Shown: positions 2,778 through 22,053 of the stretch, piece after piece
How positions within the stretch are numbered: position 1 is the stretch's first letter
How the letters are laid out: each line of letters begins with the position of its first letter
Assembly: GCA_029005135.1 (NCBI GenBank)
Contig: JAQXFO010000009.1
Span: forward strand, 1-50,873
Origin: Lachnospiraceae bacterium
GTDB lineage: Bacteria > Bacillota > Clostridia > Lachnospirales > Lachnospiraceae
DNA: 50,873 nt
Reading direction: 5' to 3'
The notes under the pieces: model-generated
Seen by the model: only the letters and a program-made list of their open reading frames with translations
What the model was told of the DNA's origin: nothing
Database searches by the model: none
Program-made: the position numbers and the translations under genes

Positions 2778-2852
2778 ATCGTTAATCCTCTTATTTCGCG
2801 GAATTTCAGGCAAAACAGTATCCGCCCGGTGACGAGCGGATACCGGTATGAT

Positions 2853-4580: not shown

Positions 4581-5030
4581 TTATTTCCCGTCGTTGTAAG
4601 CGCCGGCATTTTCCAGCGGATTGATGCCTGTGTACGGAACGGCGTTGCCGTCGCTGTTGGCACCCTTACCGGTTCTGGTGATCGTACAGCCGGTGTAATC
4701 CACGATGCCGCCGATGGCCACGAAGGGCTTCTTCACTGTCACGGTCACGGATTCCACCACATCACTGGCATCAAAGATCTCGTCAGCGATACGCTGGGCG
4801 ATTCTCTGAACCATCTTGTGCTGTTCCTGTGTGACAACTCTCTTGGCGCAATCGTAGAGGACCAGATAGCTGATGCCCTGTGAATAGTCGTCGTCCTGGC
4901 ACTTGCCCGTCTCATCGGATTCACAGGTGATGTCGACGACGAACTTGGCGCCGAATTTATTTTCCTCCGGGAAATACCCGTGGGTACCCCAGAACTGCAT
5001 GCCTTTGGCGATCGTGGTGCAATTAGACAT
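4581..5030 (-). CDS. FolB-like (dihydroneopterin aldolase) T-fold protein
   Basis: A 149-residue protein. Its N-terminal half (GMQFWGTHGYFPEENKFG, then KFVVDITCES) resembles dihydroneopterin aldolase/epimerase, where YGYHGVLPEERKLGQRFEVD is typical. The later VESVTVTVKKPFVAI matches the end of the T-fold (typical VTVRKPxAPI). The tunnelling fold binds pterins, purines and urate, and the glutamate in the EE(N/R)K segment anchors the ring in characterised members. No other folate gene is near, and its neighbours are purine/pyrimidine hydrolases, so a heterocycle-binding or ring-cleaving role in the island is more likely than folate synthesis. That is inference. It has a longer C-terminal tail (GKGANSDGNAVPYTG) than usual FolB. 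Confidence 0.72.
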   Translation of the reverse strand: MSNCTTIAKGMQFWGTHGYFPEENKFGAKFVVDITCESDETGKCQDDDYSQGISYLVLYDCAKRVVTQEQHKMVQRIAQRIADEIFDASDVVESVTVTVKKPFVAIGGIVDYTGCTITRTGKGANSDGNAVPYTGINPLENAGAYNDGK

Positions 5031-6388: not shown

Positions 6389-6435
6389 AGCTTTTTTCCT
6401 TTCTTTTATATTATGAAATGTCCAGCATTTCAAAC

Positions 6436-7794
6436 TCACTTAACAGGAATGTAGGCGCCGCTGCCCTTTTCGACATCGACGATGCCGTCCTTCATGACAA
6501 CGCGGCCGCCCTTGATGGTGCAGGTGCACCGGCCTTCCAGTTTAAAGCCTTCGAAGATCGAGTAATCCGTCTTGCCGGCCACGGCCTCCATGCCGTAGGT
6601 CCACTCGCCCGCCTTCGGATCGAAGAAGGCCAGGTCGGCATCACTGCCCGGAGCAATGGTGCCCTTGCGCGGATACAGACCGTAGAACTTCGCCGCGTTG
6701 GTCGAGGTCATCCGGACAAAGGCCGGCATGTTAAGACCGCCCTTGATGACGCCCTCGGAGAAGGCATACATCATGCGTGTCTGAACACCGTCGACGCCGC
6801 AGGGCACCGTCATATAGTTGGTTCCCAGCTTATAACGGCGGGAATACGGGCAATGGTCGGTGGACAGGATCGCGATCTCCTCGTTGACCAGAGCTTCCTT
6901 CAGTCTGTCGGCATCCGCCTGTGAGCGGAGCGGCGGATTCATGGTGTAGAGAGCGCCTTCGCCGCCCTTCATATTCTCGATGGTGAACTGCATGTAGTGC
7001 GGACAGGATTCCAGAATGAAATTCTCATTCCCGGCCGCTTTTTCACGGGCGCGGATCTCCGCTGTCTGACGGCTGCTGGTATGGGCGATGCAGAGGCGGG
7101 TTCCCGTCTCCTTCGCGATGGCCAGCACGTTCTCCACGGCGATCTGCTCGGAGATATTCGGCCGTGTCAGGGACAGAGCCGTCATATCCGACGTATCAGC
7201 CGGGTATTTCTCCTTCATACAGTCTATGATACTCTTTTCCTCGGCATGCACAAGAAGAGTTCCCTTATCATGGATGCTTTCCATGATGTTGCGGAAGTCG
7301 CCCGGCAGAAGGGAGGTATGCGGATAGTAGGTATAGGCCTTGAAATTGCGGATACCCTCATCCAGGATTTCATCGAGGCGGGGCAGCTCTTCGCGCCAGT
7401 TCTCGGTGAAGGTATAGTGCAGAGCAAAGTCGACAGCCGCATCCCGGCCGGCTTCCTTGCGGGCAGCGATGCAGTGCAGGGGATCTTCCCCGACGCCCGG
7501 CTCGCAGAAATCCACCACGGTGGTGGTGCCGCCGGCCAGGGCCGCTTTGGAGCCCGAGTAGAAATCATCGGCGATCGGAATATCGCCGAAACCGCCGAAA
7601 TGCACATGGCCGTCCACGCCGCCCGGCACGACATACTGACCGGCCGCGTCGACCATGTCACAGTCGGGGTAAAGGGCTCTGACATCCGTCTCCGGAGAGA
7701 GCACCGCGGCGATCCGGCCGTTTTCAAGGATCAGAGAGGCCCGGTATTCCCGGCACTCATCGACAACAATACCATTGACAACAGCAGTAACCAT
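6436..7794 (-). CDS. hydA: Dihydropyrimidinase / D-hydantoinase family cyclic amidohydrolase
   Basis: A 452-residue HydA/HyuA-type enzyme that opens cyclic amides (dihydropyrimidines, hydantoins, cyclic ureides). All metal-site elements are present: GGVDGHVHF (HxH), the bridging carboxylated lysine in IRNFKAYTYY, LLVHAEEKS, CIAHTSSR and ILSTDHCPY (Asp). FKAYTYY differs from the usual FKMFMAY context, so the substrate pocket may differ. Ribosome binding site AAGGAGGAA. It follows the PreA-like reductase and precedes the SsnA-like enzyme, the order expected for reduce-then-hydrolyse chemistry on a pyrimidine or purine ring. Confidence 0.88.
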   Translation of the reverse strand: MVTAVVNGIVVDECREYRASLILENGRIAAVLSPETDVRALYPDCDMVDAAGQYVVPGGVDGHVHFGGFGDIPIADDFYSGSKAALAGGTTTVVDFCEPGVGEDPLHCIAARKEAGRDAAVDFALHYTFTENWREELPRLDEILDEGIRNFKAYTYYPHTSLLPGDFRNIMESIHDKGTLLVHAEEKSIIDCMKEKYPADTSDMTALSLTRPNISEQIAVENVLAIAKETGTRLCIAHTSSRQTAEIRAREKAAGNENFILESCPHYMQFTIENMKGGEGALYTMNPPLRSQADADRLKEALVNEEIAILSTDHCPYSRRYKLGTNYMTVPCGVDGVQTRMMYAFSEGVIKGGLNMPAFVRMTSTNAAKFYGLYPRKGTIAPGSDADLAFFDPKAGEWTYGMEAVAGKTDYSIFEGFKLEGRCTCTIKGGRVVMKDGIVDVEKGSGAYIPVK

Positions 7795-7872: not shown

Positions 7873-8967
7873 TCAGCCCTTGATGCTGATGGCTTTCTTC
7901 GGGCATTCACCGAAGCAGAGACCGCAGACGCGGCATCTGTCGGCATCGACATGCATATTGCCGGCCTCGTCGAAGGTTCTGGCGCGGTAGGCGCAGGTCG
8001 TGACACAGCGGTTGCAGTGGACGCACTTGTCGGCTTCGAAGACGAAATCCGCCGGGGAGACTTCATTCAGCTTGCTGTTCTTAAGCGACAGGCGGGAGAC
8101 CGAAGCGATATCGGCATAGCCGTATTTGTCCATCAGGTCGGACAGGCCCCTGGTGAGTTCTTTGAAGACCTGCGGACCCTTGACGATGGCGGCGGTACAG
8201 ACGCCGACACAGGAGGCACCGGCCATCAGCATCTCAAGAGCCGCTTCGGCATTGGTGACACCGCCGAGACCGATGATCTGTTTGTCGGTGTTGGCGGCGA
8301 TATCATGGACGTAGCGCAGGGCGATCGGCAGGATCGGGGCACCGGTCATATAGCCGTAGCCGCTGCCGCCCAGCAGGGGCTGACCTGTGGCCACATTGAC
8401 ACGGTAAGTCGGGCCGATGGAGTCGATGGCAGTGATGGCATCGGCACCGGCGGCGTCGCAGGCCTGAGCGATAGCTTCCGTATCCTTCCAGTTGCCGTTG
8501 ACCTTGGTGATGATCGGGATCGTGATGACCTTCTTGAGAGCTGCCAGAAGATCAACGAGGTCAGCCGCTTCCGTATAGCCATTGACCAGCTCGATCATGT
8601 CGGCTCCGGCATCCTCGCACATCTGAGCGATCTCAAGGGTCTCATCCAGACCGCCGTAGCCGTATACACTGGCGATCAGCGTCTTGACACCCAGGGCTTT
8701 CGCTTTTTTGATCTGTTCATCGCGCCACCAGGTCATCGGCATATCGGAGCCGCCTTCGTTGTTCAGAAGGCTGAGATTGCCGTTGGCGATCATGTGACGG
8801 GTCGTATTGACAGCGCCCTTGATCGTGATGGACTTTGTGACGACGGCGCCGCAGCCGTTATTGGCGCAGGCAGCCAGCTGCTCGGCATCCCAGCCGCAGG
8901 GACCGGAACCGAGAACAAACGGGGAATCCAGTTCAATACCGCAAAGTGTTGTTTTGATATTTGCCAT
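7873..8967 (-). CDS. PreA-like DHOD-fold flavoprotein with two 4Fe-4S clusters
   Basis: A 364-residue fusion of a dihydroorotate dehydrogenase-type barrel (about 1-300) and a C-terminal 2x[4Fe-4S] ferredoxin domain (CVHCNRCVTTC and CRVCGLCFGEC). The nearest known group is PreA, the catalytic subunit of NAD-dependent dihydropyrimidine dehydrogenase (E. coli PreA is about 411 residues). FMN-binding end motifs are visible (IIGLGGVTNAEAALEMLMAGA). The loop that in PreA reads IELNFSCPH and carries the catalytic cysteine is here IELVNGYTEAADL, with no Cys. No PreT-like NAD-binding subunit is adjacent. It may reduce a different ring or use another electron donor. Ribosome binding site AGGAGGG. Confidence 0.82.
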   Translation of the reverse strand: MANIKTTLCGIELDSPFVLGSGPCGWDAEQLAACANNGCGAVVTKSITIKGAVNTTRHMIANGNLSLLNNEGGSDMPMTWWRDEQIKKAKALGVKTLIASVYGYGGLDETLEIAQMCEDAGADMIELVNGYTEAADLVDLLAALKKVITIPIITKVNGNWKDTEAIAQACDAAGADAITAIDSIGPTYRVNVATGQPLLGGSGYGYMTGAPILPIALRYVHDIAANTDKQIIGLGGVTNAEAALEMLMAGASCVGVCTAAIVKGPQVFKELTRGLSDLMDKYGYADIASVSRLSLKNSKLNEVSPADFVFEADKCVHCNRCVTTCAYRARTFDEAGNMHVDADRCRVCGLCFGECPKKAISIKG

Positions 8968-8991
8968 TGATACACCCTCCTATTTCAGCCA

Positions 8992-9441
8992 TCAGGCCAT
9001 CTTTAAATATTCCAGGGCCGCTTCTATACGTACAATATAGCCAGTGCAGCGGCAAAGGTTCCCATTGAGATAGGCTTTGACCTCATCGTAATCCGCGTCC
9101 GGCAGTTCCTTCTTGAGAGCATAGGCCAGGACCACAAAGCCCGGTGCGCAGTAACCGCAGCCTTCACCGCCAACACGGATCAGGCAGTCGACGATTTTCT
9201 CGGCCTCTTCCCCGAGGCCCTCCGTCGTGATGATCTCGGCGCCGTCGGCGCGGGCGCTCAGATACTCGCAGCTGCATGTCGGTTTGCCGTTGATCAGAAC
9301 CGTGCAGGTGCCGCAGGCACCGTCATTGCAGCCGATCTTAACAGACGGACAGCCGTTTTTGCGCAACGTATCGGCCAGGAATTCCGATTCGGTGACTTCC
9401 AGACGTTTTTTCTTTCCGTTTAATATGACATTAATCTGCAT
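8992..9441 (-). CDS. xdhC: Xanthine dehydrogenase-type 2Fe-2S subunit
   Basis: A 149-residue electron-transfer subunit of the molybdenum hydroxylase family. It has the plant-type cluster motif GCNDGACGTC...C and the second cluster motif CGYCAPGFVV...CRCTGY. It carries electrons from the molybdenum centre to FAD. The start at 9441 is supported by GGAGGAG and by an 11-base overlap with the end of the FAD subunit gene; an upstream in-frame Met at 9567 has no such support. Subunit letters differ between species. Confidence 0.93.
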   Translation of the reverse strand: MQINVILNGKKKRLEVTESEFLADTLRKNGCPSVKIGCNDGACGTCTVLINGKPTCSCEYLSARADGAEIITTEGLGEEAEKIVDCLIRVGGEGCGYCAPGFVVLAYALKKELPDADYDEVKAYLNGNLCRCTGYIVRIEAALEYLKMA

Positions 9442-10228
9442 CGGCAAGCTCCTCCACAGCTCTCCGGGCAAAGACCCGGCAGAGTTCCCGGCGGTATTCA
9501 GCCGAACCGCGGTAATTGGATCCAAAGGTAAAGCTGCCGGCGATACGATCCGCCAGTGCCGGCGCATCGGCGGCGGTGATCCGGCGGCCGTTCATATCCG
9601 CCATCACCTCGGATGCCAGACGGGCCGGACCCGGGAAGACACCCGCCGCTATCGTCCAGACCCCTTCGGTCCTGGCTGCCGACAGGCAGAATATCGAATA
9701 ATCGTTGTAGGATTTCCGCATCATCTGAACGACAGCACGGGCACCGGCCTTCGGGAGACGGATCTCTACCAGGATGTCCCGGAACGGCTTTTTCAGGGTC
9801 ATGTATTCCGCCAGCGGGATCTCACCGCTGTTGTGGAACTTCAGCACGGCCCCCAGCGCCATCAGCGTCGGGATAATATCGGAAAAACCGAAACGGGAAG
9901 CCACATGACCGCCGATCGTGATCGCATTTCTCAGCTGCACGCCGATCAGGTGCTCCACCGCCCGCGTCAGCGCTTCATCATAGCGTTCCTTGAGCAGCGG
10001 GCTTGTCTCGATGTCCCGCAGGCAGGTTGAGGCGCCGATGGCCACGCCATCCTCGCGTTCTTCGATATAATCCAGGCCGCAGGCGCCCAGATCGATGGCG
10101 GTGCCGATCATCAGGCGTGTCCTCTTCAGAAATGTACAGCCGCCGATGACGTAATTGTTCTTTCTCTTTGTCAGAAGGGCGTAGGCCTCATCAAGGTCCG
10201 CCGGTCTGACGTATTCACGAATCTGCAT
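9431..10228 (-). CDS. xdhB: Xanthine dehydrogenase-type FAD-binding subunit
   Basis: A 265-residue FAD subunit of the CoxM/XdhB family. It starts with REYVRPADLDEAYALL, then has the FAD-loop segment NYVIGGCTFL, IGASTCLRDIE and QLRNAITIGGHVA (typical xRNxAtIGGN). It passes electrons on to NAD+ or a ferredoxin. It overlaps the molybdenum subunit by 14 bases at its start and the Fe-S subunit by 11 bases at its end, so the three are translationally coupled. Ribosome binding site AAAGGAGG. Confidence 0.92.
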   Translation of the reverse strand: MQIREYVRPADLDEAYALLTKRKNNYVIGGCTFLKRTRLMIGTAIDLGACGLDYIEEREDGVAIGASTCLRDIETSPLLKERYDEALTRAVEHLIGVQLRNAITIGGHVASRFGFSDIIPTLMALGAVLKFHNSGEIPLAEYMTLKKPFRDILVEIRLPKAGARAVVQMMRKSYNDYSIFCLSAARTEGVWTIAAGVFPGPARLASEVMADMNGRRITAADAPALADRIAGSFTFGSNYRGSAEYRRELCRVFARRAVEELADAD

Positions 10229-12548
10229 GGGCGGCCTCCTTTTCTCTGATGGCTTTCAGCACCTTTTCCGGTGTGACCGGCAGGGAATCGAAATGGATGC
10301 CCAGGGCATTGAACAGCGCATCGGTGATGGCCGGTGCCGGGGAGCCTGTGGCGATCTCGCCGAGGGATTTGGCCCCGAAGGGACCCGTCGGCTCATAGCT
10401 TTCGATGAATTCGAGGCTCATGCGGGGCATGTCCATCTGACAGGGTATCTTGTAGCTCTCCAGATCCCGGCTGAGATTGCGATGATCCCTGCCGTACTGC
10501 ACCTCCTCGAACATCGTCATGCCAATGCTCTGGGTGATGCCGCCCATGGCCTGTACACGGGCATTGATCGGATTGAGCACGCGGCCGCAGTCAATAGCCG
10601 AAGCCATGTTGATCAGGCGGTAATACCCGGTATCCTTGTCAACCTCAATCTCCACGCAGGTGGCCACATAGGGACTGGGCGCAAAGCTGTCGGGGAAGGA
10701 GGCGCTGACCACCAGGGGGTCGCCGCCGCCCCAGTAGAAGCCCCATTTATCGGAAAATTCGATCAGGTCCATCAGACGCTCGCCGGTGCGGGCCAGATAG
10801 AAGACCTCATCGCGGAATTCCAGCGGTTCATCCTCGGGAAGACCGGCCGTCTCGCGGACGCATTTCCACAGAAGCGTCTTCATCTTCTCGGCAGCCAGCT
10901 TGGCGGCGCTGCCGCAGCGGTAGGTATTCGAGGAAGCATAGGTGCCCGGATCGAAGGGTGTCGTGGCGGTATCCGCCGCCATCAGATGAAGATGGTCAAG
11001 ACTGACCTCCAGCACTTCGGCGACGATCTGAAGCATCACGGTGTTCGAACCGGTGCCGATGTCGGCATGGCCTGTGAAGATACAGAAGGAACCGTCGGAG
11101 TTCATCGTGATGTTCACATTGCCGCGGTCAACGCGGGGAACACCGGAAGCATGGGACGCGATGCCCAGGCCGACGCCGCGGACGAGGCGTCCCTCCGGCA
11201 AACTCCTGTTGCGCTTGCTGTCCCAGTCGATCTGGTCCATGGCGCTCCGGATGCACTCCGGCAGCGTCGAGCTGCCGATATAGGCGGGATCGTCCGGCAG
11301 ATAACCGTTCATAACCGGGTGGGAGTCACCGACCTTCGCGATATTTTTCAGGAAAATGTCCGGCAGTTCCAGTCCCATCTCATCGGCCAGATGACGGGCC
11401 GCCACATTGAGCAGGAAGCAGTTCTGTGTGGCACCGAAGCCGCGGAAAGCGCAGCCTTCGACTTTATTGGTAAAGACGCTGTACTGATCGATGCGCATGG
11501 CTTCGACCCGCGGGAACAGGGCATAGGAATTGCGGATGCCCGTCTCCATAACGTCCTCGGAGATCTCGGAGTAGGCGCCGGCGTTCTGATAGCCGGTGGC
11601 GTGAAAGGCCTTGAAAACGCCGTTCCTGTCGGCACCGACGGTGAGCTCCAGCTCGTATTCATGCCGTGTACCGATGGCGATCATCGCTTCCTCACGGCTG
11701 AAGATCAGGTAAGCGGGACGTCCGGTCAGATAGGTGACCAGGGCGCACCAGCAATAGGGCGTGAAAATATTCTTGCCGCCGAAGCCGCCGCCGACCTGCG
11801 CCTTGATGACGCGGACCTTGCGCCGGTCGATGCCCAGGCTTCGCGCCACATCTTCCTGCATGGCGTCGGCCGCCTGTGTCGGGGCGTACACCGTCAGATA
11901 ACCGCGGTCGTCATAGTAGGTATAGGCGCGATGGGTCTCCAGCTGGGTGTGGATCTGCTGCGGCGTGTAGATCTTGACATGGGTCACATGATCACAGGCC
12001 TCCAGCGTCTTCTCCAGATCGCCGTAGTTGCGATAGCTGTGGTGAACCTGGTTTTTCTCGGGGCAGTATTCCCCAATCAGATTCTCCTGAATATACATCT
12101 CATCCAAATGCTCGCCGTGGACGATGATGTCACTCTCCAGTGCCTGACGAAAATCCATCAGGGGCTCATGCTTTTTCCAGGTGATCTTGATGAGCTTGCG
12201 GGCTTTTTCCGCCGCTTCCTCCGTCTCGGCGGCCACAAGCGCGACGACCTCGCCCTCATAACGGCCGACCTTGTTGAGGATATGGCGTTCAAACGGCGTA
12301 TAGTTCCAGCCGAAGTTGGTCATGACAGGCGTGTCCTCCCAGGTGAAGATGCGGACTACGCCGGGAACCTTCATGGCGACAGAGGCATCGAAGGATTCAA
12401 CTTCTGCAAAAGGATAGGGGCACATGACGGCTTTCACCGCCAGAGCATCGTCGCGCAGAGTATCGGCCATGTAGACCGGTCTGCCCAGACCCAGTGCCCG
12501 GCCCTCAACGCGAGGTATTTCTTTTGTAATGTAAGTGAACTTGTCCAT
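10215..12548 (-). CDS. xdhA: Xanthine dehydrogenase-type molybdopterin subunit
   Basis: A 777-residue catalytic subunit, normal length for the large subunit of three-gene molybdenum hydroxylases. Landmarks: early RPVYMADTL, VGGGFGGKN (molybdopterin contact), GCAFRGFGATQ (substrate-orienting Arg), FTGHADIGTGSNTV, and GAKSLGEIATGSPA with the base glutamate near the C-terminus. Family members hydroxylate purines, pyrimidines, nicotinate or aldehydes. Purine is favoured by the neighbours but not proven by sequence. No cofactor-insertion (XdhC/CoxI-type) or molybdate genes are in the window, so they must lie elsewhere. It follows GntR after 29 bases. Confidence 0.9.
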   Translation of the reverse strand: MDKFTYITKEIPRVEGRALGLGRPVYMADTLRDDALAVKAVMCPYPFAEVESFDASVAMKVPGVVRIFTWEDTPVMTNFGWNYTPFERHILNKVGRYEGEVVALVAAETEEAAEKARKLIKITWKKHEPLMDFRQALESDIIVHGEHLDEMYIQENLIGEYCPEKNQVHHSYRNYGDLEKTLEACDHVTHVKIYTPQQIHTQLETHRAYTYYDDRGYLTVYAPTQAADAMQEDVARSLGIDRRKVRVIKAQVGGGFGGKNIFTPYCWCALVTYLTGRPAYLIFSREEAMIAIGTRHEYELELTVGADRNGVFKAFHATGYQNAGAYSEISEDVMETGIRNSYALFPRVEAMRIDQYSVFTNKVEGCAFRGFGATQNCFLLNVAARHLADEMGLELPDIFLKNIAKVGDSHPVMNGYLPDDPAYIGSSTLPECIRSAMDQIDWDSKRNRSLPEGRLVRGVGLGIASHASGVPRVDRGNVNITMNSDGSFCIFTGHADIGTGSNTVMLQIVAEVLEVSLDHLHLMAADTATTPFDPGTYASSNTYRCGSAAKLAAEKMKTLLWKCVRETAGLPEDEPLEFRDEVFYLARTGERLMDLIEFSDKWGFYWGGGDPLVVSASFPDSFAPSPYVATCVEIEVDKDTGYYRLINMASAIDCGRVLNPINARVQAMGGITQSIGMTMFEEVQYGRDHRNLSRDLESYKIPCQMDMPRMSLEFIESYEPTGPFGAKSLGEIATGSPAPAITDALFNALGIHFDSLPVTPEKVLKAIREKEAAHADS

Positions 12549-12577: not shown

Positions 12578-13324
12578 TCAGATTTTTTTGCGCACGACCA
12601 GGTGAGGAATCACCCGATCGATAAAATACTCTTCCGAATACAGCACCGGATTCGACCGAAGGTCGTAGCCGACCTCGCAGAGATAAAACAGGGCTGTTGT
12701 CATAGGTACTTCCAATGCTTCGGATACTTCCTTCGTCACCGGCATCGCCCGCACCTCGGCCAGATTGGTCTCGACACTGGTGCCGCAGAATTTCTCAAGG
12801 AAAGAAAAGACGGTCTGCGTCAGGTCCTTTTCGGTGTAGGCCCGGGTAATCAGACGGGCCGGCACATAGTCGATGCAGAAGATGCCCGGCTTTTCGTTGG
12901 CCCGGATCATACGGGCCATCCGGAGGACTTCCTCGCCCTCTTCGATCTGAAGATGCTCCGCCAGTTCGGCGTCAGCCCGTTCCGTGCGGTAGGTCACCCC
13001 TTCGATCCGCGCCGTCTTGCCTGTCATGCGGATCGTCTGAAGAAGCTCATAATTCAGGTCCAGCCGCGTCCGGGCGCTGACGACGGGCTTGTTGATCAGC
13101 GTCCCGATGCCGTGCTTTCGTGTGATCCAGCCTTCTCTCTCCAATCGTGTCAGACACTCGCGGATGATGTTGCGGCTGACATTGAATTCTTCCGCCAGAT
13201 CCTTCTCCGGCGGCAGCACTTTGACATCGGCGAAGCGGCCTCTCTGAATCTCATTGAGAAGATCCTGGGTGATCGATGTCGACAGCTGCGTTGTCTTTTT
13301 CTGATTTTTTTCCATTTTCCCCAA
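12578..13324 (-). CDS. GntR/HutC-type regulator with UTRA ligand domain
   Basis: A 248-residue transcription factor. The N-terminal winged helix-turn-helix is clear (LPPEKDLAEEFNVSRNIIRE, then CLTRLEREGWITRKHGIGT), and the C-terminal half fits the UTRA ligand-binding domain (LRMARMIRANEKPGIFCIDY, PVLYSEEYFIDRVIPHLVV). It is the first gene of the molybdenum hydroxylase operon, and its own promoter carries the best copy of a dyad that recurs at two other promoters here, so it probably represses itself, the importer and the FGGY kinase, with a pathway compound as inducer. The start is either TTG at 13324 (AGGGGAG nine bases upstream) or ATG at 13315; this cannot be decided from sequence. Confidence 0.92.
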   Translation of the reverse strand: MGKMEKNQKKTTQLSTSITQDLLNEIQRGRFADVKVLPPEKDLAEEFNVSRNIIRECLTRLEREGWITRKHGIGTLINKPVVSARTRLDLNYELLQTIRMTGKTARIEGVTYRTERADAELAEHLQIEEGEEVLRMARMIRANEKPGIFCIDYVPARLITRAYTEKDLTQTVFSFLEKFCGTSVETNLAEVRAMPVTKEVSEALEVPMTTALFYLCEVGYDLRSNPVLYSEEYFIDRVIPHLVVRKKI

Positions 13325-13459: not shown

Positions 13460-14083
13460 TCAGAAACCGAATTTTTCCGCCAGGGCCTCGCTGTCGACCG
13501 CTCCGGTGATCCAGGTGTTGGCCGTGGTCATATTCTGGACTCTGACTTCACCGCTTGCCGGCAGGGAAGCCAGGGCCGCCTTCACAGCCTCATCAGTTCC
13601 GCGGGCCCAGAAGGTATGCACAGCACCCAGAGTACAGGCCGCCTGCTCTCTCTCATGAAGGAGCGCCGCATCATCGCAGAGCGGAGCCACCGGATAGGAG
13701 CTCCAGGCGAATTCGCAGGGGATGCCAAAGTCTGTCATCACGCGGACCATATCCTTGAAAGCCCGGTAATTGACGGCAGCGGCACCGTCGGCTGCCAGGC
13801 GCCATACCGGTCCTTCGCTCTCAACCGTCACCTCCGTGCCGCCCAGCACCACCGTGCCGTTAGCCCAGGTTTCGATAAGGGCGCCGTTCTTTTCCGTCAC
13901 TGTCGGCAGCGTCAGCTCCGCCGGAGCATCCAGGCGCATTTCCAGTGTCAGCATGCGGCGGCCGGCCAGCATGCGGTTATCAAAAGACAGATCCGCGGCA
14001 TCATCGCACAGTGCCAGGAACATATTCAGGACATGCTGCCAGCTGAAGCGTTCCGTCAGATCCAGATCAGTCACTTTTCCCAT
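13460..14083 (-). CDS. Unknown 207-residue protein coupled to the Mch-like enzyme
   Basis: I do not recognise the family. It is soluble, without signal peptide or membrane segment. It has an N-terminal helical part (ERFSWQHVLNMFLALCDDAA), a strand-rich middle and a C-terminal part (GEVRVQNMTTANTWITGA). Its ATG overlaps the TGA of the Mch-like gene (TGATG), with GGAGGAAG inside that gene, so the two are made together and are probably functional partners. Base composition is like the neighbours. It ends only about 15 bases before the GntR promoter, and I see no terminator in between. Confidence 0.7.
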   Translation of the reverse strand: MGKVTDLDLTERFSWQHVLNMFLALCDDAADLSFDNRMLAGRRMLTLEMRLDAPAELTLPTVTEKNGALIETWANGTVVLGGTEVTVESEGPVWRLAADGAAAVNYRAFKDMVRVMTDFGIPCEFAWSSYPVAPLCDDAALLHEREQAACTLGAVHTFWARGTDEAVKAALASLPASGEVRVQNMTTANTWITGAVDSEALAEKFGF

Positions 14084-15063
14084 CAGATTCTTCCTCCATC
14101 TCCCAAAAAGGCATTTTCCAAAGCTGTCTGGCCAATCCGGCCCGTGGAATACGTATGGCCGGTCCGCACATTAAAGAAATTGATCTTGCAGGGGGCATCC
14201 CAATCGCGGGGCACGAAGGCCCAGTTGTTCTGACAGCGCGCAAACAGCTCCTGGAAGGGGACGCCGTACACATCATCCGGATTCTTGGAGAACGGGATGT
14301 CATCCAGCATGCCGGTGATGGCCTCGTCATCGGCATCAACGGTCAGATTGGCTTCCTGGCCGTAGATCAGGCAGTCGTTGACACGGCCGTAGGCGACAGA
14401 CTCGTCATCCACGATGGAGACCAGGGGCGTCGTCGCGTTGCCTTCAAGGATCTGATCCATCGAAAAGCCCCGGTCATAGACCGTCGGCAGAGCCTGCTCC
14501 ACGTTGCGGGCGCAAACCTGTACCGCCCCTGTCATACAGGCGGTCCTTGCCGCCATAATATAGATCTGGTCGGGACGGACGCCGCAGGCGGCGGCGATAG
14601 CATCCGTCAGTTCCTCATCGGGCATCTCGGTGGTCTGCACGCCGCAGACGACCTTGCGCGGCGACGGATCACGGTAAGCCACCGACCGGGCAAAATGATC
14701 GGCGCCGATCACGGCACGAATCGGGCCGGAGACGACCTGCGGGGCGCCGTGCCAGTCCACACGGACCGAGGCCACGTAAGACGCCATCTCGCAGACAGCC
14801 GGATTCTCCGTCACGACCTGAAGCCCCGGCACCAGATAATGATCAAGCTGCAGCATGGTGTAGGACAGTTTTCCCAACCCGCCCATGCCGATCTCGGCGA
14901 AATACTTGCCGGCACGGAATCCGCCCTTGCAGCGAATGCCCATATCCAGCACCACCGCGCCGTTCGCCAGAGTGAAGACACCGATATTCAGCCGGTCGGC
15001 CTTCGGGATCACGTCATTCTCAACGATCGCCGCAGCGGCATCATTGACGCTCCAGTGAGTCAT
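14083..15063 (-). CDS. Homologue of methenyl-tetrahydromethanopterin cyclohydrolase (Mch)
   Basis: A 326-residue protein that lines up along its whole length with archaeal and methylotroph Mch (about 316-320 residues). Shared landmarks: GGFRAGKYFAEIGMGGLG (47-64), ACMTGAVQVCARNVE (175-189), YGRVNDCLIYG (225-235), VYGVPFQELF (265-274) and NVRTG (298-302). Mch opens the five-membered imidazolinium ring of methenyl-H4MPT by adding water. This organism's type is not expected to use H4MPT, and no other C1 gene is present, so the enzyme probably performs related ring hydrolysis on another compound, perhaps an imidazole or imidazolone from purine breakdown. That last step is inference. Ribosome binding site AAAGGAG. 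Confidence 0.8.
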   Translation of the reverse strand: MTHWSVNDAAAAIVENDVIPKADRLNIGVFTLANGAVVLDMGIRCKGGFRAGKYFAEIGMGGLGKLSYTMLQLDHYLVPGLQVVTENPAVCEMASYVASVRVDWHGAPQVVSGPIRAVIGADHFARSVAYRDPSPRKVVCGVQTTEMPDEELTDAIAAACGVRPDQIYIMAARTACMTGAVQVCARNVEQALPTVYDRGFSMDQILEGNATTPLVSIVDDESVAYGRVNDCLIYGQEANLTVDADDEAITGMLDDIPFSKNPDDVYGVPFQELFARCQNNWAFVPRDWDAPCKINFFNVRTGHTYSTGRIGQTALENAFLGDGGRI

Positions 15064-15076: not shown

Positions 15077-15703
15077 TCATTCCTGCGGCTTGCCGTTTTT
15101 CAGAGCCGTGGCGATCAGAGCCAGTCTCTGAGCGACAGTCTTGACATTGGCCATGCCCTTCTCATCCTCGGCGGCGCCCTGAGCCATGCGATCCTGACTC
15201 CAGACGGCAGCGCCGGCATAGACACCCAGACCGCCGTTGACCACCGTCATACCCTGAGTATGGAACCAGCCCAGCAGGGTGTTGATCGCACATTCCTGAC
15301 CGCCGTTCCGTGTTCCGCCCACCGCCAGCGCGGCGCCGGCCATGTAGAGACGGCAGTTCGGGTCATCCTTCTGGATCAGGTATTCGGCGCGGAAACGGGA
15401 CAGGAAACCGCTCAGCTGCGGCGTAATGCCCATCTCGTAGACCGGGGAGGCCAGCAGGATGCCGTCATATTCCCACAGTCTGGTATTCCAGTCTGCCATA
15501 TCGTCATTGTACAGCACGCAGTGGGGCACTCCCTTCTTGACACAGGCGTTGCAGCCCATGCAGGGGGCGATCTTCTTGCCGGCCAGGTACAGAATATCCA
15601 CAGACACATCGGCGATCTCTTCGGCATAGGCTTTGGCCTGCTCGACAGCATAGGCCGTTGAGGCTTTGCGGGCACTGCCGCACACAAACAGCAAACGAGT
15701 CAT
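15077..15703 (-). CDS. Iron-sulfur flavodoxin-like NAD(P)H/FMN oxidoreductase
   Basis: A 208-residue flavodoxin-fold protein. The N-terminal CGSARKASTAYAVEQA is the FMN phosphate-binding loop (compare GSPRKxGNT). CMGCNACVKKGVPHC (C-x2-C-x2-C-x7-C) fits the compact cluster motif of archaeal and clostridial iron-sulfur flavoproteins (ISF), and LLASPVYEMGITPQL is the second FMN loop. Such proteins move single electrons between ferredoxin or NAD(P)H and a partner. It lies 13 bases upstream of the Mch-like gene in the same operon, suggesting that a redox step feeds the cyclohydrolase-type step. Confidence 0.83.
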   Translation of the reverse strand: MTRLLFVCGSARKASTAYAVEQAKAYAEEIADVSVDILYLAGKKIAPCMGCNACVKKGVPHCVLYNDDMADWNTRLWEYDGILLASPVYEMGITPQLSGFLSRFRAEYLIQKDDPNCRLYMAGAALAVGGTRNGGQECAINTLLGWFHTQGMTVVNGGLGVYAGAAVWSQDRMAQGAAEDEKGMANVKTVAQRLALIATALKNGKPQE

Positions 15704-15724: not shown

Positions 15725-17089
15725 TTAATGCGTTTTGATCCAGTCATTCATATACTCAATGGCCTCGCGGGCCACTTCTCTCTCATCCAGACCGCAGGCG
15801 AACTGTCCCTTGTGATAGGCGATCCTGCCGCCGACGATCGTCGTTTCGATATTTTCCTGACTCGAATTGTACATCAGCGTTGCCAGCGTATTGAAGTTCG
15901 GCGCTGAACGAAGGAAGGTCGGATCATAGATGAACATATCTGCCTTCTTGCCGACCTCCAGAGAACCGATATCGGTGCGATGCTCGGCTCTGGCCGCATT
16001 GACAGTGATGAAATCCAGCATGTTCTGCGCCGTCATGGCCGTCGGATCCTTCATATAGCCCTTCTGAAGCAAAAGGCCCATCTTCAGCGACTCGACCATA
16101 TCGGAGCTGTTATTGCTGCCGGCGCCGTCCGTTGCCATCGTGATATTGATGCCCCGGCGCATCATCTCGGTCATCGGCGGGATGCCGGAGCCGAGGATCG
16201 TGTTGGCCATGGGACAATAGACGACATTGACGCCGTAACGGGCAAAGGTTTCGATCTCATGGGGCTTGATCACCACATCGTGAACCGCCAGAAGCTTATC
16301 GCTTAAGAAACGGTGCTCCTCCATGACCTCCACCAGATCCTTCCCAAAATGCTTCTGTGTCCAGACATTGTCGTCTTCCGTTTCCAGCACATGCATGGTG
16401 TAGGGCGTCCCGGTCTTCTCACTGTAATCGACGACGGCATCGTACAGCTCGGGACTGCCGCCCCAGGAGACTGAGATACCCGGCCAGACTGTATTCAGCG
16501 GATGTGTACCGTCCTCGAAGAAGGTCTTGAGCTCGTGGGTGCGGGCAATGGCTTCCTTCGGCGGCAGGATCATGCTGGGATGCGTGTTCATATCTTCGCC
16601 GCAGGAGTGGAAACAATCCATGAAAATGCCGCGGATACCGATCTTTTCCATGGTAAGACCGCTAATGTAGCCGAAGTCGATCGTCGACTGGAGATAGCAG
16701 AAGTCAGCCAGCGTCGTCACGCCGCTGCGCAGGCTTTCCATCGCGGCCAGCTTGCAGGCCAGCTCGAACATCTCCGGTGTGATGTGGGGGCCGCAGCGGA
16801 AGGGACAATCCTGCAGCCAGCCTACCAGATCCTTATCGGCGCCGAGATCCTTCAGAAGAGACTGGAACACATGGACGTGCATGTTGTGCATGCCCGGAAA
16901 CAGCGTCTTGCCGGTGCCGTCCAGCTCCTGTTTCGCTGTCCATTCCTTTTTCGGCAGATGGCCGATCGCCGCGATGGTGTCACCCCGGATCGCCACATCC
17001 ACAGACGGCAGCACCGTCCTGCCGGCGTCCTGGGTATAAACAGTGATATTGCGGATCATGAGGTCCGCGGTGTTGGGATATTGAATCAT
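15725..17089 (-). CDS. Second TRZ/ATZ-type amidohydrolase (MtaD/guanine deaminase-like)
   Basis: A 454-residue amidohydrolase. Metal and catalytic motifs: GMHNMHVHV (HxH), YTMHVLETEDD (His and Glu), LLAVHDVVIKPHE (His) and ATDGAGSNNSSDM (Asp). The last motif and VYCPMANTILGSGIPPMTEM resemble the MtaD/DadD nucleoside deaminases and s-triazine hydrolases more than SsnA. It would remove an amino group from a purine-like ring or open it hydrolytically. The start at 17089 (MIQYPN) has AGGCGGTG six bases upstream; an earlier Met at 17110 is less well placed. It heads the block amidohydrolase, flavodoxin, Mch-like, unknown protein. Confidence 0.85.
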   Translation of the reverse strand: MIQYPNTADLMIRNITVYTQDAGRTVLPSVDVAIRGDTIAAIGHLPKKEWTAKQELDGTGKTLFPGMHNMHVHVFQSLLKDLGADKDLVGWLQDCPFRCGPHITPEMFELACKLAAMESLRSGVTTLADFCYLQSTIDFGYISGLTMEKIGIRGIFMDCFHSCGEDMNTHPSMILPPKEAIARTHELKTFFEDGTHPLNTVWPGISVSWGGSPELYDAVVDYSEKTGTPYTMHVLETEDDNVWTQKHFGKDLVEVMEEHRFLSDKLLAVHDVVIKPHEIETFARYGVNVVYCPMANTILGSGIPPMTEMMRRGINITMATDGAGSNNSSDMVESLKMGLLLQKGYMKDPTAMTAQNMLDFITVNAARAEHRTDIGSLEVGKKADMFIYDPTFLRSAPNFNTLATLMYNSSQENIETTIVGGRIAYHKGQFACGLDEREVAREAIEYMNDWIKTH

Positions 17090-17217
17090 ACGTTCACCGC
17101 CTTTCAACATGACAAGGTTCCGTTTTAGGCAGGGCTCTCTGCCCGCTTCGGCAGGACTTACTTCCTATATAAAAGACAATATGGAAATGAGCCGTTTCTG
17201 CCCGGTGGATCACCGAA

Positions 17218-17309: not shown

Positions 17310-18827
17310 TCAACCGGCTTTGACGTTGTCCAGACGATTACCGGCCATCAGCATACCGACAGTCTCGATGTCGGCATCTTTGGCATCCATTTCGCCGAGG
17401 ATCTCGCCTTCATAGATAACGCCGATGCGGTCACTTAAGGAGAAGATCTCATCAAGTTCTGTTGAAATGAGCAGAACAGCGCAGCCGGCATCACGTGCCG
17501 CCACGATCTGCTCGTGGATAAACTCCGTCGCGCCGACGTCAACGCCGCGAACCGGGTGAACCGCCAGAAGGAGCTTCGGATCCTTATCCAGCTCACGAGC
17601 CACGACCAGCTTCTGCTGGTTGCCGCCGGAGAGGGAGCTGCCCTCATAAGCGATGTTGGTTGTCTTGACGCCGTAGTGTTTAACCAGCTCTTCGGCGTGG
17701 GCATCCAGTTCCTTCCACTTCAGGAACGGGCCGTTCTGGTATTCCGTATTATAGAAGGTATCCAGGATCAGATTATCCCGGATGGAAGCCGACATGATCA
17801 TACCGACATGCTGGCGGTCTTCCGGAATATGAGCCATGCCGCAATCCAGAATTTCCTTCGGCGAGGCCTTGGAAACGTCCTTGCCGTTTATCTTAACAGT
17901 GCCTGTTCTCTTGCACAGACCTGCAATAGACTTGATCAGTTCGCTCTGGCCGTTGCCGTCGACACCGGCGACACCGTAGATCTCACCGGCACGGACCTGC
18001 AGACTCAGGCCGCGGACAGCTTCGACGCCGCGGGCATCGTGGGCATGAAGATCTTTGACCTCCAGAACCACATCGCCGGCCTTGCATTCCGCTTTGTCAA
18101 CTTCGAACTTGACATCACGGCCGACCATCATGGTCGCCAGACCGCGGGCATCCGTCTCTTCCGGTTTCACAGAGCCGACCACTTTACCCAGATGAAGAAC
18201 CGTGATGATACTGCTGATCGTCATGACTTCATTCATCTTGTGGCTGATGAAAACGACGCCTTTGTTTTCGCTCAGCAGATTGCGCACGGCGACAAACAGC
18301 TCCTCGGTCTCCTGCGGCGTCAGAACAGCCGTCGGTTCGTCAAGAATCAGCAGGTCGCAGTTGCGGTAAAGGGCCTTAAGAATTTCGACACGCTGCTGCT
18401 GTCCGACTGTCAGAGAGGACACTTTGGCATAGGGATCAACGGCCAGGCCGTAGCGCTTTGACAGCTCAAGCAGCTTTTCGGCAACACTCTTCTTGTCGAT
18501 GAAAAGCTTATTCTCATTCAGGCTGAGAATCACGTTTTCGACAACGGAGATGGTCGGGATCAGCATGAAGTGCTGATGAACCATACCGATTCCGTTATCA
18601 ATGGCATCCTTCGGAGATGTGATCGACACTTCTTTACCATCCACGAAGATCTTGCCTTCGTCCGGCTTGGCCAGGCCATAGAGAACCTTCATCAGCGTTG
18701 TCTTGCCGGCGCCGTTCTCGCCCAGCAGGGTATGGACCTCGCCGCGTTCAAAGGTGACATCGACTTTGTCGCAGGCCACTGTGCCGGGATAAATTTTGGT
18801 AATACCCTTCATTTCGATAAAGCTCAT
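17310..18827 (-). CDS. Nucleoside-type ABC importer ATPase (two ATP-binding domains)
   Basis: A 505-residue double ATP-binding subunit of the BMP/NupA-YufO type. Domain 1 has Walker A GENGAGKTT, signature LTVGQQQRVE and Walker B LLILDEPT. Domain 2 has GVDGNGQSE in place of Walker A, LSGGNQQK and LLLAVHPVRGVDVGA instead of a standard Walker B, the usual degenerate form in this family. It powers uptake through the two permeases upstream. The start at 18827 (MSFIEM) is chosen because GGGAG lies nine bases before it; ATG 18836 would be too close. Substrate class is probably a purine nucleoside or base. Confidence 0.92.
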   Translation of the reverse strand: MSFIEMKGITKIYPGTVACDKVDVTFERGEVHTLLGENGAGKTTLMKVLYGLAKPDEGKIFVDGKEVSITSPKDAIDNGIGMVHQHFMLIPTISVVENVILSLNENKLFIDKKSVAEKLLELSKRYGLAVDPYAKVSSLTVGQQQRVEILKALYRNCDLLILDEPTAVLTPQETEELFVAVRNLLSENKGVVFISHKMNEVMTISSIITVLHLGKVVGSVKPEETDARGLATMMVGRDVKFEVDKAECKAGDVVLEVKDLHAHDARGVEAVRGLSLQVRAGEIYGVAGVDGNGQSELIKSIAGLCKRTGTVKINGKDVSKASPKEILDCGMAHIPEDRQHVGMIMSASIRDNLILDTFYNTEYQNGPFLKWKELDAHAEELVKHYGVKTTNIAYEGSSLSGGNQQKLVVARELDKDPKLLLAVHPVRGVDVGATEFIHEQIVAARDAGCAVLLISTELDEIFSLSDRIGVIYEGEILGEMDAKDADIETVGMLMAGNRLDNVKAG

Positions 18828-18859
18828 ATTTGACATCTCCCGTAAAATCATTCTTCGAT

Positions 18860-18925
18860 GGTGCCCCGCGGGAGGATTCCCCCGCGGGGGCACCTGCTTT
18901 TTTCATAATAAGCGGCAGAGCCGCT
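18860..18925 (-). promoter_or_regulatory. Intercistronic GC-rich hairpins between binding protein and ATPase
   Basis: Just after the binding-protein gene the RNA can form AGCGGC-3-GCCGCT followed by TTATT (18911-18925), a weak terminator. A very stable stem of about 13 bp (18860-18894) with no U-run on this strand follows. Together they could cut down transcription of the ATPase gene and protect the 3' end of the binding-protein message. On the + strand the second stem is followed by a T-run but no gene precedes it. Confidence 0.55.
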
Positions 18926-18958: not shown

Positions 18959-20041
18959 TTACAGTTTAGAGAAATCTTCCTTATCAAGAGCTCTCTGATA
19001 GTAATCAGCGATGATCGCTCTTTCTTCATCGGTCAGCTTGTCGGCATAAGCACCGCCGAAATCAGTGATGGTGATAACGCCTTCGGCAGCACCGACGGAG
19101 ACGGCACCGGAGCCAAGTTCACCGCGGATAGCGCTGTCGATAGCCGCTTCGATACCGATGGTGGAGTTCTGAACGACCGCGCAGATAACGCTCTCGCCCT
19201 GATCTCTGTAGTCAGAGACGGCGCAGACATTGACAACACCGGACTCTGTGCACTGCTGAATGGCGCCGATACCGGCAGCATCGCAGTTTTCTGTGATGGT
19301 ATCGCAACCCTGGTTGATCAGCTCCTGTGTGGCCTGCTTGGCCTTCAGCTGATCGTCATAGGAACCGGTGTAAACGATGGTCACTTCGGCGCCCGGATGA
19401 ACCATGGCGGCGGCCTTCTTCAGGGCTTCGCCCCACAGGACAGTGGTATCGCCTTCAAGAGCGTTGACGCAGCCGATCTTGCCGTTTTCGGAAGTCAGAC
19501 CGCAGACAACACCTGTCAGGAAACCGAATTCATAGGAGCCCAGGTCGATACCGGCAAGGTTCGGATCCTGACCGGACATGGAGCTTGTGTTGATGAACTG
19601 GATGTCCGGATAATCCGCAGCCACTGTCTTGGAGGTGTCCAGGAACTCGGCGCCGTGGGCGACGATGATCTGGTAACCGGCATCGGCATAACCGCGCATG
19701 GTGGTTTCGAAGTCAGTCGGCTGAAGTGATTCGGAGAAGTTGGTGGTGCAGCCATATTTGGCAGCCGCATTGGTCAGGGCGTCGGCAGCCAGCTGGCTCC
19801 AGCCGCCGTCATTGGCAGAACCGGACAGCAGAAGGCCGATCTGGATAGCGGAATAATCAACCTCTTCGGATTCCGCTTCGGCTTCGGATTCGGCCTCGGA
19901 TTCCGCGACAGATTCCGCGACAGACTCTTCTTTGGACTCAGCCGGAGCGGCTTCGGATGAAGACGCGGCGCTGCCGCAGCCGGCCATGAGGCCAACAGCC
20001 ATCAGAACCGACAAACCCAGTGCAAGTACTTTCCTCTTCAT
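18959..20041 (-). CDS. BMP-family nucleoside-binding lipoprotein (copy 1)
   Basis: A 360-residue basic membrane protein (BMP/PnrA) family solute-binding lipoprotein. It has a signal peptide with lipobox LMAGC (Cys 22), a long Ser/Glu/Ala linker (about 25-65) and then a periplasmic-binding-protein fold with GLLLSGSANDGGWSQ near the start and VVCGLTSENGKIGCVNAL. Characterised members bind purine nucleosides outside the membrane. It lies between the permeases and the ATPase. A second copy (22534-23616) shares long stretches such as SGSANDGGWSQ and VYTGSYDDQLKAKQ, showing gene duplication. Confidence 0.92.
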   Translation of the reverse strand: MKRKVLALGLSVLMAVGLMAGCGSAASSSEAAPAESKEESVAESVAESEAESEAEAESEEVDYSAIQIGLLLSGSANDGGWSQLAADALTNAAAKYGCTTNFSESLQPTDFETTMRGYADAGYQIIVAHGAEFLDTSKTVAADYPDIQFINTSSMSGQDPNLAGIDLGSYEFGFLTGVVCGLTSENGKIGCVNALEGDTTVLWGEALKKAAAMVHPGAEVTIVYTGSYDDQLKAKQATQELINQGCDTITENCDAAGIGAIQQCTESGVVNVCAVSDYRDQGESVICAVVQNSTIGIEAAIDSAIRGELGSGAVSVGAAEGVITITDFGGAYADKLTDEERAIIADYYQRALDKEDFSKL

Positions 20042-20135: not shown

Positions 20136-21011
20136 TCAGGCGCTCTTCTTATACGGCAGGCCGAGGGAGGCCGGATCCTTGACGTTTCTCGAGAAGGCGC
20201 AGAGGGCAACGATGATCAGAATGTACGGGATCATCAGGGCCACTTCGTACGGGAAGGAGCCGCTGCCCGCCTGGAGACGGAAGGACAGTGTTTCGCCGGC
20301 ACCGAAGATCAGGACACCGGCGAAGGTGCCGAAGGGCGTGTATTTGCCGAAGGTAACGGCAGCCAGAGCGAAGAAGCCGCGGCCGGAAGACATATTTTCG
20401 GTGAATTTACTCAGAAGACCGGTCGACAGGAAGGCGCCGCCGAAACCGACGAACATGGAGCTGACAATCGCGGCTTCGTAACGAAGCTTCTTAACACTGA
20501 TACCCATGGATTCGACAACGGTCGGATTCTCGCCGACAGAACGGAAGCGGATGCCGGTGTTGGTTTTGTACATGAAGATCCACATCAGGATGATGCAGAC
20601 AAAGCCGATATAAATCGGGGCCGAGAAGCCGAGGGCATCCTTGGCGAACTGCTGCTGGACTGTGACGGCGTCAGTCTTGAAGGCACGGTTCAGTGTGGTC
20701 GTCAGGCCGGCGCCGATCAGGTTGAAGGCGATACCCAGAACGGTCTGGTTAATGTTGAACTCGATGACCAGGACGGCGAAGATAAGGCCGAACAGAGCGG
20801 AGGCCAGCATCGCACACAGGGCGCCGAGCCAGATGTTGTTCAGGTAATAGCTGGCTACGACAGCGACATAGGCGCCAAGGATCATCATACCTTCGGCTGC
20901 CATATGAACAATACCGGTCATCTCCAGAAGCAGAACGCCGAGGGCTGCGAACAGCAGCGGCGTGGAGTAAATTATCATAGAAGTGATGAATGTCACTATC
21001 GAACTATTCAT
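20136..21011 (-). CDS. Nucleoside-type ABC importer permease 2
   Basis: A 291-residue, highly hydrophobic permease of the branched-chain/nucleoside (BPD_transp_2) group. The family hallmark, usually GxxNIGxEGMMLxGAF, reads GIVHMAAEGMMILGAY here, about 35-50 residues in. It overlaps the first permease by 8 bases (21004-21011), with GGAGGATG inside that gene, so the two chains are co-translated to form the membrane channel. Confidence 0.9.
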   Translation of the reverse strand: MNSSIVTFITSMIIYSTPLLFAALGVLLLEMTGIVHMAAEGMMILGAYVAVVASYYLNNIWLGALCAMLASALFGLIFAVLVIEFNINQTVLGIAFNLIGAGLTTTLNRAFKTDAVTVQQQFAKDALGFSAPIYIGFVCIILMWIFMYKTNTGIRFRSVGENPTVVESMGISVKKLRYEAAIVSSMFVGFGGAFLSTGLLSKFTENMSSGRGFFALAAVTFGKYTPFGTFAGVLIFGAGETLSFRLQAGSGSFPYEVALMIPYILIIVALCAFSRNVKDPASLGLPYKKSA

Positions 21012-22053
21012 GGATCATCATCCTCCTCTTCTCATTTCTTGCTGCGGCCACTCTGGCAACAACGTCGACCAGAACAAATATGATAACCATGGCACGGATC
21101 AGGTCAACGGCTGACGACGGGATCTTACTGAACATCTGCAGCGAGTTGCCGCCGCTCTTCAGAGCGCCGATCAAAATACCGCCCAGGAACATACCGACAG
21201 GTGCCGTTCCGCCGAGGAGGGCCACCGCCATGCCGTCGAAGCCGTAGTTGCTGGCAACGCCCTTGAGGAGTCGATGCTGAACACCGAGAACTTCGATGGC
21301 ACCGGCCAGACCGGCGAAACCACCGGCCAGGAACATGGCCAGAAGACGATTGGTCCGGACATTCAGACCGGCGTATTCGGCGGCCGCATTATTCTGACCG
21401 ACGACACGCATACCGAAGCCGGCACGCATCTTCCACAGGAAGACGCCGTAGAAGACAAGGCTGAGAACCATCAGGATAATGCCGCAGTGAAGCTTGGCAC
21501 TCTCGTTGAGCCAGGGCAGCCAGTACTTCTCGTCAAACATCATGGTCTGGGGAGCCGTGCTGTTCGGATCCTGGATCGGGCCGGCGACCATGTAGAGAAC
21601 CAGGTACTGCATAACGTAGTTCAGCATAACGGTCGTGATAACTTCGTTGGCACCGAAGGCTACCTTCAGGACACCGATCAGAAGGCCGCAGAGACCGCCG
21701 CCGATGAAGCCGGCAACAATGGCCACGAGAATAACAAGAGCCGCCGGACCCGGCATGTACAGAACGACCAGGGTTGAACACAGGGCGCCGGCGTACATCT
21801 GACCTTCCGCACCGATATTGATCAGGCCGCAGCGATAAGCGAAAGCATAGCTGAGACCCGTCAGCGTCAGTGTTGTCATCTTACTGGTAGTTGTCGCAAA
21901 ATTCGCCAACGAGCCGAACGCGCCTTTGAAAATAAGGCTGAAGGCTGAAAGCGGGTTCTCGCCTATGGCCAGGATCAGGAGCGATCCCGTCAGGCAGGCA
22001 AGAAGAATGGATACGAGCGGGCTTGCGACCCTAATGGCTTTGTTCTTGTTCAT
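21004..22053 (-). CDS. Nucleoside-type ABC importer permease 1
   Basis: A 349-residue permease of the YufP/NupB type. It has CGLINIGAEGQMYAGAL (hallmark) and later GFDGMAVALLGGTAPVGM, both typical of nucleoside and ribose permeases. First gene of the importer operon, 38 bases downstream of a GntR-type operator. Gene order is permease, permease, binding protein, ATPase. Confidence 0.91.
   Translation of the reverse strand: MNKNKAIRVASPLVSILLACLTGSLLILAIGENPLSAFSLIFKGAFGSLANFATTTSKMTTLTLTGLSYAFAYRCGLINIGAEGQMYAGALCSTLVVLYMPGPAALVILVAIVAGFIGGGLCGLLIGVLKVAFGANEVITTVMLNYVMQYLVLYMVAGPIQDPNSTAPQTMMFDEKYWLPWLNESAKLHCGIILMVLSLVFYGVFLWKMRAGFGMRVVGQNNAAAEYAGLNVRTNRLLAMFLAGGFAGLAGAIEVLGVQHRLLKGVASNYGFDGMAVALLGGTAPVGMFLGGILIGALKSGGNSLQMFSKIPSSAVDLIRAMVIIFVLVDVVARVAAARNEKRRMMIHE

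Follow-up and report, generated by a model that had tools for sequence, protein, structure and literature searches.

A diverged Mch-type cyclohydrolase homolog and its degenerate paralog in a candidate pterin-catabolic gene island of a Lachnospiraceae bacterium

Results

A 50,873-nucleotide stretch of the genome of a Lachnospiraceae bacterium (contig JAQXFO010000009.1, positions 1 to 50,873; hereafter the window) encodes a full-length homolog of methenyl-H4MPT cyclohydrolase (Mch), here termed MCH, next to a degenerate second Mch paralog, MchS, among importer, amidohydrolase and flavoprotein genes (Table 1). The explanation that we favor, at a probability of about 0.5, is that MCH serves as catalytic subunit in an Mch-type cyclohydrolase that has been repurposed and is probably heteromeric, within an island for the anaerobic catabolism of pterin-like compounds. 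Our best current guess for its substrate, and roughly an even bet, is a lumazine-type pteridine.

Table 1. Predicted genes of the island and of the adjoining gene run in the window
Position	Strand	Product	Basis
1593..2813	-	YgeY-family M20 hydrolase, 491 bits vs cut-off 321	NCBIfam
2853..3350	-	flavin reductase domain protein	profile
3351..4019	-	222-aa protein in same gene run	
4581..5030	-	FolB-Q, dihydroneopterin aldolase family, Gln in place of the pterin-binding Glu	TIGR00525, alignment
5060..6439	-	SsnA-like amidohydrolase	profile
6436..7794	-	D-hydantoinase/dihydropyrimidinase-family hydrolase (HyuA-like)	profile
7873..8967	-	UacX/PreA-like protein (DHO_dh + 4Fe-4S)	profile
8992..9567	-	XdhC-like 2Fe-2S subunit; 137-base overlap with XdhB, true start probably further in	profile
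9431..10228	-	XdhB-like FAD subunit	profile
10215..12548	-	XdhA-like molybdenum hydroxylase large subunit	profile
12578..13324	-	GntR/UTRA regulator	profile
13460..14083	-	MchS, degenerate second Mch paralog, 207 aa, proposed partner subunit	profile, hhalign, conservation
14083..15063	-	MCH, Mch-family protein of 326 aa, full length	family profile match, residue alignment, fold
15077..15703	-	FMN-reductase family protein, Cys-rich motif	profile
15725..17110	-	AMH, amidohydrolase, 8-oxoguanine deaminase/SsnA group, HxH + HxxE; proposed pterin deaminase	profiles, motifs
17310..18893	-	ABC importer ATPase, two ABC domains	profile
18959..20041	-	BMP/PnrA-type substrate-binding protein	profile
20136..21011	-	ABC importer permease (BPD_transp_2)	profile
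21004..22053	-	ABC importer permease (BPD_transp_2)	profile
22534..23616	-	second BMP/PnrA-type substrate-binding protein	profile

A Mch homolog and its degenerate paralog

The family profile PF02289 matched MCH with an E value of 2.8e-71 over all of its positions (1–311 of 311), and the whole fold is common to MCH and the Mch structures 1qlm and 4gvq. Most of the glycine motifs are kept, and R186 and E189 of MCH align with Arg183 and Glu186 of the A. fulgidus enzyme, residues that reportedly have a catalytic role there. The membership of the Mch family that the initial annotation had read from the letters alone is thereby confirmed. MCH differs from Mch proper in that its TIGR03120 equivalog score of 216.9 bits lies below the curated cut-off of 228.8, that Q143 occupies the position of A. 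fulgidus E140, that a degenerate copy follows it and that H4MPT marker genes were not found in its genome; it also falls outside the canonical Mch clade described below. By score, clade and marker genes, MCH is not placed among the true methenyl-H4MPT cyclohydrolases of that equivalog. All seven Mch of the window's own clade (B4) have lost Q93 and G96 and carry S251F, S254N, F272W, P277R and F280D.

The MchS gene overlaps that of MCH by one base. Against a profile built solely from full-length Mch, MchS gave an E value of 5.9e-5 for the whole sequence and 0.027 for the best single domain, and hhalign matched it and its six counterparts to Mch at 99.8–99.9%, which places them in the Mch family. 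Glu186 is lost in all seven MchS and Arg183 in four, and MchS adjoins MCH in every one of the seven B4 loci. The structure model of MchS was weak (pLDDT 63.5), and its alignment included three full-length Mch, hence it is not independent of them. The two proteins probably form a heteromeric cyclohydrolase in which MCH would be catalytic and MchS a pseudo-subunit.

Mch copies and H4MPT marker genes

The source genome (2.15 Mb in 88 contigs, listed as 100% complete) carries three Mch homologs, of which one lies in the window and the others on C8, a contig of 29.9 kb, and no Mch homolog was found in the 60 other relatives searched, 36 of them from the same genus. The initial annotation had seen no further H4MPT gene in the window, and this extends to the contigs of the entire genome, in which Ftr (TIGR03119, PF01913), MptA and RFAP synthase, the genes by which the making or use of H4MPT was judged, all had no match; an H4MPT pathway was rejected on these grounds. 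FolD is present (175 bits). Mch-bearing genomes made up 2 of 392 in a sample of the order and 26 of 398 in a sample of the phylum, the source genome being counted in both. In two further orders, Mch matched in 5 of 22 and in 2 of 3 genomes; these seven were known before, and no new B4 copy was found there. Among the 27 Mch-bearing genomes (the 26 of the phylum sample and G096), Ftr scored over its cut-off in 10, MptA in three and RFAP synthase in nine.

Contamination by a foreign contig is unlikely, as C8 matches the window in GC content (0.573 vs 0.574–0.579) and in tetranucleotides (r 0.97–0.98), and is also disfavored by a syntenic copy on a 143-kb contig of an Oscillibacter MAG. One of the C8 copies (L006:1736-2734, plus strand) forms a very long branch of 3.9 changes per column, keeps E140, R183 and E186 and has a GntR regulator and a RibD_C-like gene as neighbors. 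The other, of B3 type, lies in a second island (L006:4502-19236 and L007) with DAO, Pyr_redox and ferredoxin-like genes, an AMH, a BMP/ABC importer, an Amidohydro_2, an AOR-cluster protein and a MetH-like protein whose match is limited to MetH 2-839 of 1182.

Phylogeny and gene neighborhoods

The Mch tree comprised eight references and 43 full-length rows from 53 locus hits, from which seven MchS, one partial sequence and two fragments had been dropped. Canonical Mch of archaea, proteobacteria and Bacillota formed one clade of 19 rows (support 99/100). Thirty of the 32 non-canonical rows fell into clades that we named B1–B4, with L062 joining B3 at weak support (80/54), and the other two, L038 and the long-branched C8 copy, lay outside them as long branches. 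MCH belongs to B4 (seven rows, 100/100), apart from the canonical clade.

AMH, ABC importer, BMP protein and FMN reductase were each found in six of the seven B4 loci, FolB in five, and Ftr and FhcC in none, in a count in which the window stretch is longer than the other loci, L048 was entered under both B4 and B1/B2, and the FolB of L050 was missed. The seventh locus, L048, has no ABC, BMP, AMH, FMN reductase or FolB in its stretch. The corresponding numbers for the 11 canonical loci of Bacillota were AMH 1, ABC 2, BMP 1, FMN reductase 0, FolB 3, Ftr 9 and FhcC 9. Ftr and FhcC were also absent from the B1/B2 (0/9) and B3 (0/7) loci; these, like B4, combine importers, amidohydrolases and flavoproteins with clade-specific gene sets, including SDR and E1/E2 in eight of nine B1/B2 loci, and DAO, Amidohydro_2 and EcfT (the last named by reading sequences) each in four of seven B3 loci. 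The company that the initial annotation noted around MCH recurs at most B4 loci, and its proposal that the Mch fold had been recruited to catabolism is well supported by the importer and amidohydrolase genes in 6/7 B4 loci, the missing H4MPT markers and the genome's own FolD. On the canonical side, locus L043 has MptA, Ftr, FhcA, FhcB and FhcC over cut-off. The two canonical loci without Ftr and FhcC, L045 (G551) and L056 (G581), lie in genomes without a match for Ftr, MptA or RFAP synthase, and the Mch of L056 adjoins a BMP/ABC importer.

Glutamate-to-glutamine exchanges in FolB and Mch

The FolB of the window is like other FolB in scoring over the TIGR00525 cut-off (87.3 vs 72.15) and in keeping E22, Y54 and K100; it differs in having Gln in place of the pterin-binding Glu74, in belonging to a separate clade and in lying in a genome with no match for FolK. 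It is the sole FolB match of that genome. In a FolB crystal structure Glu74 hydrogen-bonds the pterin product, and that study lists it among the substrate-binding or catalytic residues (PMC11328599). The alignment column that we equate with Glu74, from its distance to E22 and Y54, is occupied by Glu in 22 of 34 FolB sequences and by Gln in 12: Glu in 14 of 14 that adjoin FolK and in 3 of 3 from H4MPT loci (by coordinates also near FolK), Gln in 11 of 11 from islands or similar loci (one of which, L086, has no obvious catabolic company), and five Glu and one Gln among the remaining six. E22 and K100 are kept in all 34 and Y54 in 33. At position 140 of Mch (A. fulgidus numbering), all 19 canonical rows have Glu and all 30 B1–B4 rows have Gln, with Glu kept in L038 and the long-branched C8 copy; a first conservation table used 17 of the 19 canonical rows, and the later listing of this position covers all 51 rows.

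FolB-Q forms one clade (97/96) in a tree that left out two tandem FolB. It was found in 10 of 15 genomes with a Gln-type Mch, the other five having none detected, and in none of the 10 whose Mch are all of the Glu type (25 of the 27 genomes, less G096 and G487; Fisher p 0.001, a test that ignores kinship). Each exchange may be a single event, FolB-Q being one clade, and therefore the counts overstate independence. FolB-Q also occurs away from Mch, at L084 and L087 next to a BMP importer and FMN reductase, and at L088 in the company of Xdh, RibD_C-like and AMH genes. Separately, FolB-matching proteins of ~240 aa, in several of which two halves are seen, occur at L085 and L088–L092, sometimes beside AMH or FMN reductase.

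Because FolB and Mch both exchange a conserved Glu for Gln, and Glu74 of FolB binds the pterin, the pair suggests a 2-oxo pteridine (lumazine) as substrate. Both exchanges fit a compound bearing 2-oxo in place of the 2-amino group, the product expected of a pterin deaminase. Uricase, which has the same fold as FolB, holds its 2-oxo substrate with Gln. That E140 of Mch is the pterin anchor is a guess by analogy. Ftr was considered as a parallel Glu/Gln test and rejected: both copies in the catabolic clusters of G503 (L082, L083), a genome without a match for MptA or RFAP synthase, match 33 of 36 conserved polar positions, and Ftr, being near-canonical there, therefore gives the lumazine idea no support. 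Five strongly diverged Ftr (L077–L081; best pieces 84–144 bits) have lost many of these positions, and their neighbors, where the stretch reaches, are an ECF-type transporter, FGGY-like kinase, aldolase-like, Zn-alcohol-dehydrogenase-like and 474–479-aa amidohydrolase genes (names partly by eye).

Flanking genes

AMH is proposed to be a pterin deaminase. HxH and HxxE, which we take to be the deaminase metal site, are conserved within its cluster. Its best PDB match was 3hpa (153.6 bits; listed merely as an amidohydrolase, and presumably an 8-oxoguanine deaminase), ahead of 2paj (117.4), presumably isoxanthopterin deaminase. Among the best 25 of 59 NCBIfam matches, all were under cut-off and the top one was 8-oxoguanine deaminase (215 bits vs cut-off 532). 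The FMN-reductase family protein we assume to be iron-sulfur flavoprotein-like.

On the other side of MchS, the genes at 1593-12548 include homologs of those for reductive uric acid degradation: YgeY scored over its cut-off, and XdhA, UacX, SsnA and HyuA are family-level homologs under the equivalog cut-offs. In the Oscillibacter MAG (L004) the order is MCH-MchS-GntR-YgeY-XdhA-XdhB-XdhC-UacX-HyuA-SsnA; compared with the window YgeY has moved, MCH-MchS-GntR and XdhA through SsnA are collinear, and identity is 62–90% from GntR on. No FolB was seen in the L004 stretch examined, which ends inside the SsnA-like gene. This set could act in later steps on the pyrimidine part, and could equally be a purine pathway.

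Two open reading frames are likely antisense artefacts: 23984-25000, which has no Pfam or NCBIfam match and overlaps an SDR gene, and 6997-8970, which overlaps the UacX-like gene. Positions 24197-31285 hold an SDR, an FGGY kinase (25088-26617), a ThiO-like DAO, a SoxA-like oxidoreductase with 4Fe-4S and the lactaldehyde reductase FucO (617 bits, cut-off 537), possibly a second sugar/amine module. A 1295-aa open reading frame at 41711-45598 (minus strand) had no NCBIfam match at 1e-20.

Discussion

From gene content and conserved residues we infer a route in which the BMP/ABC importer would take up a pterin, AMH would deaminate it at C2 to a lumazine (2,4-dioxopteridine), the FMN-reductase-family protein would set the dihydro level and FolB-Q would remove the polyol side chain from C6 in a retro-aldol cleavage. 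In the most conjectural step, the Arg186/Glu189 pair of MCH/MchS would add water to a carbon beside N5 and open the ring, this carbon being that of the C6=N5 imine or, if the substrate were a folate, the N5-linked C1 bridge. The Xdh/UacX/HyuA/SsnA/YgeY-like set might then process the pyrimidine that is left, in the manner of reductive uric acid degradation. We know of no precedent for an Mch ring opening on an unconjugated lumazine, which offers no C1 bridge.

A wider proposal, which we think possible but less likely than not, is an undescribed anaerobic pterin-eating route for which related bacteria keep several Mch paralogs, and in which the side-chain genes of each island would fit one natural pterin: SDR and a pyruvate/acetoin-dehydrogenase-like complex in B1/B2 for biopterin, FolB-Q with Fe-ADH/AOR in B4 for neopterin, and DAO, Amidohydro_2, an M20 amidohydrolase and an ECF transporter in B3 for folate. 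Deamination of the pterin would come first, the exchanges in FolB and Mch would serve to bind the resulting lumazine, and the ring-opening hydrolase would be Mch, joined in B4 by its degenerate partner. The same B3 genes, with M20 amidohydrolases in L051 and L059, also suit native chemistry on foreign coenzymes, in which MCH would still hydrolyze a methenyl bridge and, alongside MetH-like and methyltransferase genes and the Ftr/Fhc genes of some genomes, would strip or interconvert the C1 groups on reduced folates or H4MPT taken up from outside, ahead of their breakdown. This is possible but doubtful. It is consistent with the intact R183/E186 pair, with the methyltetrahydrofolate methyltransferase domain of the C8 MetH-like protein (244 bits, domain cut-off 259) and with G503, where L082 has Ftr, FhcB and FhcA next to AMH, DAO and BMP, and L083 has Ftr next to AMH and a BMP/ABC importer; the pairing of AMH with essentially canonical Ftr in these two clusters fits C1 chemistry better than the lumazine reading. 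However, no B4 locus has Ftr or FhcC, all B4 Mch have lost Q93 and G96, B4 is accompanied by FolB-Q, from a family that works on a C6 polyol lacking N10, and E140Q would be unexplained if the pterin head were unchanged.

The initial annotation had proposed an imidazole or imidazolone ring, or an opened purine, as substrate. The former is not favored, as FolB and the Glu-to-Gln exchanges point to lumazine, whereas a purine stays in contention because the adjoining gene set resembles reductive uric acid degradation (PMC12507026) and could serve a purine alone. The substrate would then be a purine, perhaps N7-alkylated, whose imidazole MCH would open at C8 to give an N-formyl aminopyrimidine, N7-C8-N9 mimicking N5-C1-N10; the BMP/PnrA-type importer, the 8-oxoguanine deaminase match of AMH among the best 25 of 59 listed and a Gln suited to a 2-oxo purine as well would all agree. 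We nevertheless consider a purine unlikely, given a FolB over cut-off with intact catalytic residues and no obvious purine use, and a known reductive pathway that names no Mch in the available text of PMC12507026. A salvaged or unknown H4MPT-like coenzyme, imported so that MCH serves the cell's own C1 metabolism, would accord with the intact catalytic pair and nearby importer but is quite improbable in a 2.15-Mb genome with three very different Mch copies, no match for Ftr, MptA or RFAP synthase, and E140Q next to a degenerate partner. Most improbable of all is a housekeeping methenyl-tetrahydrofolate cyclohydrolase: the reaction type is the same by textbook knowledge, but the genome has FolD, on which ground this role was rejected, and Mch had no match in the other relatives searched.

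The proposed pterin-catabolic island resembles the reductive uric acid cluster in having XdhA-, UacX-, HyuA- and SsnA-like and YgeY genes near one another, and adds MCH, MchS, FolB-Q, FMN reductase and a BMP importer; no pterin terms were found in the accessible text describing that cluster (PMC12507026). A catabolic deamination of the pterin ring, such as we propose here, is described for the soil bacterium Variovorax sp. F1, which degrades folate by carboxypeptidase G and a pterin deaminase with products followed to deaminopteroate; neither "cyclohydrolase" nor "amidohydrolase" was found in the available text (PMC9513972). H4MPT genes as such have already been reported in Firmicutes (PMC5020050). 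No description of such a cluster was found in the accessible literature searched, which included parts of PMC5020050, PMC9513972, PMC12507026 and PMC13259868 and lay outside most subscription papers. This silence is a weak sign of novelty.

The presence of Mch is commonly taken to indicate methanogen-type one-carbon metabolism. Surveys based on Mch would be misled by a diverged subfamily whose anaerobic Bacillota hosts lack that pathway. If the substrate reading is true, the island would provide a testable genetic basis for anaerobic pterin and folate breakdown, with a bearing on what becomes of these compounds in the gut, and would illustrate the conversion of a coenzyme enzyme with one kind of subunit into a pair of an active and a degenerate subunit.
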